Assembly: GCA_009885955.1 (NCBI GenBank)
Contig: VFJS01000055.1
Location: forward strand, 62,001 to 126,000
Reading direction: 5' to 3'
DNA from: Spirochaetia bacterium
Lineage (GTDB): Bacteria > Spirochaetota > UBA4802 > UBA5550
Length of the DNA: 64,000 bases
Positions within the stretch are counted from its first letter, which is position 1. Every line of letters begins with the position of its first letter. Position numbers and translations under genes: made by a program. The notes under the pieces are model-generated. The model did not search any database. It was not told the origin of the DNA and saw only the letters and a list, made by a program, of their open reading frames with translations. Shown one piece after another: positions 48,535-64,000 of the stretch.

Positions 48535-48759
48535 GCCCTCACCCCCGGCCCCTCTCCCGGAATAGGGAGAGGGGTGCTAGTTATATTTATAATTCCTTAT
48601 AAAACATATAATTATATGAACACTTGGAGTCACTTATTATATAGTAAAAACTTTTTTTGTTAATTATTTTTGGGAAAAGATGTTTATAAAGAAATATTTA
48701 TGATATATACAAAAGCCCTCTCCCTACTGGGAGAGGGCGCGCAGAGCGCGGGTGAGGGG
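48535..48759 (+). mobile_element. MITE-like element, copy 1
   Basis: A 225-bp non-coding unit. It has terminal inverted repeats GCCCTCACCC and GGGTGAGGGG, always flanked outside by AT, a left hairpin arm (CCCTCTCCC paired with GGGAGAGGG, to 48576), a right arm with the same motif plus a GCGC hairpin (48715-48759) and an AT-rich core of 138 bp. A copy of exactly the same length, with a clearly related core, lies inverted at 49556-49780. The arms belong to a widespread class of palindromic repeats in bacterial genomes, but the complete two-arm unit is what defines it here. Confidence 0.8.
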
Positions 48760-49555: not shown

Positions 49556-49780
49556 GCCCTCACCCGCGCTTCGCGCGCCCTCTCCCAGTAGGGCGAGGGC
49601 TTGTATACATGTCAATAATACAAATCAATAATCATCTTTTTCTAAAACATTTAACAAAAAAAAGTTTATTCTCTATAATTAAGTGACCTCAAATGGTTAT
49701 ACGATAATATATTTTTAAGGAATTTTAAATATAACAATCACCCCTCTCCCTATTTCGGGAGAGGGGACGGGGGTGAGGGC
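49556..49780 (-). mobile_element. MITE-like element, copy 2 (inverted)
   Basis: Read on the minus strand this 225-bp unit aligns end to end with copy 1: left arm differing at about three positions, an AT-rich core with shared blocks such as AATTCCTTA, GTCACTTA and AACTTTTTTT, and the right arm with the CTACTGGGAGAGGGCGCGC motif. The terminal repeats are GCCCTCACCC and GGGTGAGGGC with AT outside. It sits six bases beyond the stop codon of the truncated antiporter gene. Confidence 0.8.
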
Positions 49781-58833: not shown

Positions 58834-59073
58834 GCCCTCACCCACTTCGACAAGTGCTACACTGAGCTATGCCGAAGTGCTCAGTGCATCGCCCGTCTCG
58901 TCGAGCGCTTTTCGGACCTCGTGTCCGCGCTCGACACTAAAGCATCCTGCTTGTCGCCTCTCCCGCCCCTCGACTTCGCTCGGGGAACGTGAGAGGGGTG
59001 GTAGTAAAAAATAATTCTTGTAACAGAAACCCTCGCCCTACCGGGAGAGGGTGCGCGGAGCGCGGGTGAGGGC
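58834..59073. mobile_element. MITE-family element with nested repeat insertions
   Basis: Terminal repeats GCCCTCACCC (58834-58843) and GGGTGAGGGC (59064-59073), each with AT outside, are those of the 225-bp elements. The left arm is interrupted by other palindromic repeats built from CACTTCGACAAGTGC and CCCCTCGACTTCG blocks. The core is only about 29 bp and the right arm (59030-59073) is intact. It is either a different family member or a deleted one that attracted further insertions. Confidence 0.65.
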
Positions 59074-63638: not shown

Positions 63639-63683
63639 GCCCTCACCCGCGCTCTGCGCGCCCTCTCCCGGTAGGGCGAGGGC
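63639..63683 (-). mobile_element. Single right arm of the 225-bp MITE family
   Basis: On the minus strand it reads GCCCTCGCCCTACCGGGAGA, then a GCGC hairpin, ending GGGTGAGGGC with AT outside. It matches the right arm of both full-length elements in sequence and in orientation relative to its terminal repeat. It lies 56 bases downstream of the DUF559 gene stop. A left arm would be expected upstream of that gene, beyond the window. Confidence 0.7.
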
Positions 63684-63739
63684 TTCCTTTTCCTGAATTT
63701 TTTTTGCTTCAATTGCCTTTACTCAAAACCCTCTTTTAA

Positions 63740-64000
63740 TTAGGGAGTTAGGTTATTTTGTATTACAACGATCTTATCAAATAATTTATTAATATCCGTC
63801 ATTACCTCTTCGTTGGTAACTCTGATAAATGTCACACGGTCTTTTTCAATCAATTCCTGTCTCAATCGATCATAATCCATTTGTTTATTATGAATTTCAC
63901 CATCAATTTCAATCGCTAAACGTAATTCATGAGAATAAAAATCAACAATAAAGCCATTAAGCTCATGTTGACGCCGAAATTTTAAACTATTAAATTTTCT
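63740..64000 (-). CDS. DUF559 (Vsr/restriction-endonuclease-like) protein, C-terminal part
   Basis: The minus strand is open from the window edge to the TAA at 63740-63742 and encodes 86 residues: FRRQHELNGFIVDFYSHELR, LAIEIDGEIHNK and IRVTNEEVMTDINKLFDKIV. This is the C-terminal half of a DUF559 domain of the PD-(D/E)xK nuclease fold: the FIVDF...LAIEIDG pattern carries the catalytic Asp and Glu-x-Asp residues. Such proteins resemble very-short-patch repair endonucleases; a function is not established. The start lies beyond the window. Confidence 0.85.
   Translation of the reverse strand, partial: RKFNSLKFRRQHELNGFIVDFYSHELRLAIEIDGEIHNKQMDYDRLRQELIEKDRVTFIRVTNEEVMTDINKLFDKIVVIQNNLTP

Follow-up and report, generated by a model that had tools for sequence, protein, structure and literature searches.

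A DUF559 nuclease gene between hairpin arms as a probable autonomous transposable element and source of MITEs in a spirochaete genome

Bacterial genomes commonly contain GC-rich palindromic repeats that are orphans, with no transposase known for them. DUF559 proteins are widespread, and are annotated merely as being of "unknown function" or as a "Vsr-like endonuclease". Several described systems resemble the locus analysed here, in which a DUF559 gene is bracketed by such repeats. In the pairing of REP sequences with RAYT/TIRYT transposases, which are related to IS200/IS605 (covered by De Nocera 2013, PMC3733652), a small nuclease gene likewise lies between hairpin ends, many gene-less copies are dispersed and target-site duplication is not seen. 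However, the RAYT enzyme is a Y1 HUH transposase whereas the protein here is a PD-(D/E)XK (Vsr/EDxHD) nuclease, and the foot of the RAYT/REP hairpin carries a GTAG tag whereas the ends here start GCCCTCACCC and the RAYT genes here have other repeats. DDE insertion sequences share with our locus the combination of an autonomous copy and internal-deletion MITEs with common ends, but the DUF559 element is only ~430-650 bp long and has neither a DDE transposase nor a target-site duplication. EDxHD homing endonucleases (I-Bth0305I) and Vsr resemble DUF559 in fold and sequence, including E20, D49, H66 and D73 plus E60-x-D62; unlike them, DUF559 is free-standing in hairpin-ended elements, with no known intron, at unrelated sites and with MITE derivatives.

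A nuclease gene has been connected with MITEs before. PD-(D/E)XK_2 (PF12784, Rpn/YhgA) elements were suggested as the source of the hupL MITE of Ca. Thiomargarita nelsonii, a proposal that rests on sequence similarity in one genome (PMC4853749); a PD-(D/E)XK gene is the proposed MITE source there as well, but the nuclease family is a different one. The Type II MITEs of the cyanobacterium Anabaena sp. 90 are abundant, and an insertion sequence with the same ends was not found for them (PMC3542288), which makes them a possible parallel. For DUF559 itself, one paper proposes Vsr-type mismatch repair for a Caulobacter protein (PMC12907096), and another places a DUF559 gene in the EDxHD homing family (PMC9403480). 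Within the open-access literature that was covered, no link of DUF559 to repeats was found.

The element at the window edge and its kin in the genome

The window, by which we mean the whole 64,000-nucleotide stretch that was analysed (G000:C31:62001-126000), ends inside a DUF559 gene, and locus L009 spans this edge (window position = L009 position + 61999). On the window scale, the features are the following.

63639-64146 (L009:1640 to L009:2147), minus strand: whole putative autonomous element, 508 bp, with arms at both ends
63639-64000, minus strand: in-window portion of the 508-bp element, the remaining 146 bp lying past the edge
63639-63683, plus strand: arm A, exact match, outer end GCCCTCACCC and then a double GC-rich hairpin, on the 3' side of DUF559
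63740-64000, minus strand: 3' part of the DUF559 (PF04480) endonuclease gene, full ORF 63740-64087, 115 aa
64102-64146 (L009:2103-2147), inverted: partner arm B, upstream of the DUF559 ATG
48535-48759, no strand assigned: MITE copy, 225 bp, arm B to arm A, last base C>G
49556-49780, no strand assigned: MITE copy, 225 bp, arm A to arm B, without a DUF559 ORF
58834-59073, no strand assigned: MITE copy, 240 bp, arm A at right, another palindromic repeat in the left arm

A preliminary description of this DNA had placed an arm of the MITE family on the 3' side of the edge gene, and this holds: positions 63639-63683 are an exact arm, GCCCTCACCCGCGC...CCCTCTCCC...GGGCGAGGGC, and the gene product matches PF04480 at E 2e-27 (residues 6-108 against profile positions 4-106 of 109). 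The minus-strand ORF starts 57 bp beyond this arm, runs past the window edge and occupies 1741-2088 in L009 coordinates. The left arm that had been predicted just past 64000 is present as the inverted arm B, which reads GCCCTCACCCCCGGCCCCTCTCCCGAAATAGGGAGAGGGG on the opposite strand and is separated from the DUF559 ATG by 14 bp. Within the 508-bp element, whose boundaries are inferred from the arm ends, DUF559 is the sole ORF of at least 60 aa, and the ends are the same as those of the local MITEs. Beside it, at L009:2238-2351, lies a 114-bp gene-less copy with the same ends.

Two end types can be distinguished, arm A (GCCCTCACCCGCGC..., a double or branched hairpin) and arm B (a single hairpin, GCCCTCACCCCCGGCCCCTCTCCC-loop-GGGAGAGGGG). 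Both fold better than shuffles (z -2.1 to -4.0), and arm A at 63639-63683 forms a branched hairpin at -12.8 kcal/mol (z -2.1). In the window GCCCTCACCC has 6 occurrences, where 0.15 would be expected. The MITEs of the window are probably internal-deletion derivatives of the DUF559 element. On two points the preliminary description needs correction: it had counted two full-length copies where there are actually three, and it had oriented the 63639 arm like their right arm, whereas this is an A arm in plus reading, like the left end of the 49556 copy. An exact search misses the right end of the 48535 copy because of its changed last base. In the 240-bp copy, the left arm is filled over 58834-58990 by another palindromic repeat, CTTCGACAAGTGC.../CGTCGAGCGC..., which has relatives within the arms at C70 and C94; repeat families are nested here.

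Genome-wide, GCCCTCACCC occurs 168 times in 4.77 Mb, compared with 5 occurrences of the reversed control, and among 100 of the 168 occurrences that were listed, 76 make up 38 inward pairs with a spacing of 86-508 bp. PF04480 has 11 matches in this genome; two of them, at the C70 end and the C83 start, are overlapping parts of one element split by the assembly, since their translated ends have 34 residues in common. Nine of the ~10 DUF559 genes lie between matching arms, which belong to two unrelated types. Six genes (C31, C83:14048, C83:15542, C94, C102 and C70/C83) have GCCCTCACCC arms on both sides; another three, of which C69 has two and C92 one, are flanked by CCCCTAAATCCCCC arms. The 4.77-Mb genome contains just 10 copies of CCCCTAAATCCCCC, and five of them are at these three genes. 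The tenth gene, on C74, lies at a contig end and has GACCTCACCC arms on its upstream side only. The expected enrichment of the repeat beside DUF559 genes over controls is thus strong in this genome, as it is across phyla (below). In two of the six GCCCTCACCC-armed genes the coding sequence is degraded to 32 and 43 DUF559 residues, inside elements of 272 and 242 bp; a MITE would arise in this way. The paralogue at C83:14048 reads in frame into its arm, ending ...MTPLALFRERGRG, in keeping with the preliminary description, according to which DUF559 proteins often end in residues encoded by such repeats.

Mobility, deletion derivatives and copy number

Copies of the element were found at different loci. 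L126 and L146, which belong to one genome, are 91% identical over 487 bp and have unrelated flanks, and between two Anabaena species an identity of 95% is limited to 649 bp. In five congeners the genes to either side of the L126 locus are retained, with 53-178 bp between them in place of ~520 bp; the five lack the insertion at these orthologous sites, although a base-exact junction could not be fixed because the empty sites are intergenic and their flanks too diverged. With L192 as the empty-site query, a syntenic flank match was absent among the congeners. These comparisons show that the gene and its arms form one unit, which occurs at different loci and is missing from orthologous sites.

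Derivatives that lost the middle of the element and kept both ends number in the dozens and are confined to G012 and G018; one internal deletion is repeated at two loci of G012, and another at no fewer than 10 loci of G018. These are the two congeners that have the DUF559 subtype of L126, and the outer repeat ACTCGAGTTAGGCGA is matched 71 and 85 times there, compared with 3-6 matches, the control level, in four congeners without that subtype. Among 36 inward end pairs of G012 and G018, only two exceed 420 bp, and both are DUF559 elements (474 and 482 bp); inward end pairs 0.7-6 kb apart numbered zero in these two genomes, and neither another gene nor a larger helper was found between those ends. 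Deletion derivatives with intact ends do multiply, and the arm type goes with the DUF559 clade.

That the copy number of the repeat would track the presence of DUF559 was confirmed among 296 genomes of the phylum, and also within one genus. In the phylum, carrying at least 3 arm-pattern copies was associated with DUF559 at an odds ratio of 15-22, a value inflated by shared ancestry, and in the family of the window's genome the arm-pattern counts were 0-151 (median 15) with DUF559 and 0-4 without it. Many DUF559 genes of the phylum sample have no arms of this pattern. Two genomes, G080 and G132, have 27 and 11 type I arm matches and zero PF04480 matches; these arms are possibly relics after loss of the autonomous copy.

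At the ends of 33 elements, direct repeats of 3-8 bp were not above shuffles, giving no sign of a target-site duplication, and the flanks have in common only a terminal T or AT and an A+T-rich stretch.

The DUF559 protein and its arms across phyla

Seven residues of the protein are invariant in 46 sequences (E20, D49, E60, D62, H66 and D73, and likewise R76), and they fit the active site of EDxHD/Vsr enzymes, so that a PD-(D/E)XK nuclease activity is predicted. The structure model (pLDDT 88) has its best PDB matches in NGO0050 (3hrl) and I-Bth0305I (3r3p), then in AbaSI and Vsr, and a profile search agrees with it (NGO0050, I-Bth0305I, then Vsr). For most close DUF559 pairs, copies within the same genome included, dN/dS was 0.06-0.28; the nearly identical pair L051/L056 is uninformative in this respect. 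Judged by these ratios, the DUF559 copies are under purifying selection.

Flanks were compared in a sample of 80 DUF559 loci, with one genome per species and a bias to relatives of the window protein. The 75 loci with enough flank were scored by the highest-scoring local inverted match of the left 300 bp of flank to the right 300 bp (threshold, at least 14). The sample covers more than 15 phyla, with hosts from Spirochaetes, Margulisbacteria, Ignavibacteria/Bacteroidetes, Chloroflexi, Cyanobacteria, Patescibacteria, Armatimonadetes, Gemmatimonadetes, Nitrospirae, delta- and betaproteobacteria and others. Matched inverted arms were found at 41 of the 75 DUF559 genes. On the same contigs, 400 random positions yielded none, and of 126 other ORFs only 4 had them (P 1e-17). 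Extra copies of the arms within 3 kb of their own locus were seen for 10 of the 41 arm sets and in 1 of 410 cross-checks. The other 34 of the 75 genes lack a clear arm pair, so mobility does not extend to every DUF559 member; in E. coli, for example, ycjD occupies a fixed locus.

Between hosts of different phyla, arm similarity climbs with protein similarity (Spearman 0.21), arms being shared at a score of at least 18 by 46% of the closest protein pairs and 2% of the distant ones, whereas flanks 900 bp further out show no such similarity. The arm type also clusters on the protein tree (33 changes against 55 when shuffled), in a test that used four coarse arm types and in which 52 of 120 loci, many of them with C-rich arms, were typed "none" by simple patterns, which limits it in part.

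Candidate mobilisers and elements in defence genes

In our judgement the edge gene is quite probably the one ORF in a small transposable element that is autonomous and has the layout arm A - DUF559 - arm B, with the MITEs as its non-autonomous derivatives, in a family driven by the nuclease. The preliminary description had suggested that DUF559 nucleases travel inside such elements or are their mobilisers, in the manner of RAYT and REP. The first part is shown by the comparisons above; as to the second, that DUF559 is the mobiliser is the best-supported reading, since it is the sole ORF found, it is under purifying selection, the arm type tracks its clade and a helper was not found. In its logic the system resembles REP/RAYT and also homing endonucleases, with an enzyme other than RAYT and without a known intron. 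DUF559 is thus the likely engine that spreads arm-ended "empty" repeats in bacterial genomes.

In the mechanism that we envisage, the DUF559 protein would recognise its own arms, possibly as extruded hairpins, and would cut at the arms and/or at an A+T-rich target, after which an element copy would be joined or copied into the A+T-rich site without target-site duplication, host repair or replication probably completing the reaction. The copies of 90-250 bp in the window and the genome are probably internal-deletion products of the DUF559 element, spread in trans. A point against this reading is the joining step, since PD-(D/E)XK nucleases are not known to perform strand transfer unaided.

An alternative that we hold to be unlikely makes DUF559 passenger cargo that benefits the host or the element otherwise, for example in defence, with another transposase (a RAYT/TIRYT tyrosine or a DDE enzyme) moving these ends in trans. 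Tyrosine transposases with terminal repeats and a GGGGWSAS motif, which GGGGTGAG fits, are described by De Nocera 2013 (PMC3733652), Y1 transposases are common in the genomes analysed here, and DUF559 elements of cyanobacterial plasmids lie in or beside defence genes. But CCTCACCC arms were present at none of 38 Y1 loci of the same or related genomes, 8 of which have inverted repeats of a different kind, so RAYT/Y1 was rejected as the owner of the arms; moreover, Y1 genes occur in all 5 congeners tested, of which just two have the repeats. The pair spacings in G012 and G018 led us to reject a larger element that would combine these ends with a different transposase, and the one 2.6-kb arm pair that was checked in the window's genome has no recognisable transposase in its interior. 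Cargo status would also leave unexplained why the arm type follows the DUF559 clade across phyla. The closeness of the protein to I-Bth0305I, an EDxHD homing endonuclease, and to the DUF559 protein NGO0050 invites another reading, in which DUF559 is a homing endonuclease that copies the element into allelic empty sites only, the arms being by-products and dispersal a matter of rare ectopic repair. A DUF559 gene has already been assigned to the EDxHD family in one paper (PMC9403480), and one PglX-type gene site is occupied in Synechocystis by a DUF559 element, in Pseudanabaena by a MITE. We consider this improbable too, and a weaker rival than cleavage at hairpin ends with host-assisted joining: dozens of copies lie at unrelated sites whose common flank is merely short and A+T-rich, the same deletion derivative has spread repeatedly, and no group I or II intron was found in 13 loci, where Rfam at the gathering score returned zero families and hence no known intron.

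GC-rich hairpins are common between genes and the arms do fold stably, so one may ask whether they are ordinary terminator- or REP-like intergenic hairpins that flank a small gene by chance. Matched arms are lacking at control ORFs and positions of the same contigs, however, and the gene with both arms recurs as a unit at unrelated loci and is missing at orthologous sites, observations that refute chance as a general account and leave it next to no probability. Returning to the nuclease-driven element, we lean, with less assurance than for the edge gene itself, towards regarding DUF559 elements as a new class of prokaryotic transposable element, whose sole encoded protein, a PD-(D/E)XK EDxHD nuclease, would act on hairpin ends with no recombinase of the DDE, HUH, serine or tyrosine type, and would serve as the helper of many orphan GC-rich MITE/REP-like families across bacteria. 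The link would give DUF559 a function and the orphan repeats a source, and it points to nucleases of the restriction/homing fold as possible drivers of dispersed transposition.

The Y1 (RAYT-like) genes at L160-L162, L172, L174 and L179 have their own, different terminal repeats, e.g. GGCTCTGACCCC and CTGATAGGGTGGGG, so that a second repeat system runs in parallel.

The elements also bear on annotation, since DUF559 proteins can end in translated arm sequence and entire elements lie in frame inside defence genes such as PglX. On plasmid pPg_02 of Pseudanabaena galeata (L211:379-3279), an armed DUF559 element is in frame inside a PglX-type methyltransferase ORF, DUF559 making up residues 373-474 with PglX-like parts on either side, directly before a DPACGSGHF motif. 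The PglX-type site shared by Synechocystis B12 and Pseudanabaena holds a DUF559 element in the former (L205:1385-1836) and a ~100-bp MITE with in-frame read-through in the latter (L212:925-1023). On other cyanobacterial plasmids (L206:1393-1895, L209 and L210), armed DUF559 genes are located within the genes for DUF1156 methyltransferases at defence loci or immediately ahead of them, and at the L206 site the linker is uninterrupted in four homologues.

The E. coli sapF-ycjD-fabI locus was rejected as a strain-level empty site, two ycjD-less strains having efflux-pump genes there (allelic replacement). At this locus (L208:1821-2044), the DUF559 gene ycjD ends arm-like and an arm, CCCTCACCCTAACCCTCTCCCC, lies downstream; ycjD may be a domesticated element. 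The 41-bp arm stretch of E. coli is also matched between ypfG and tkt in strain KE48.
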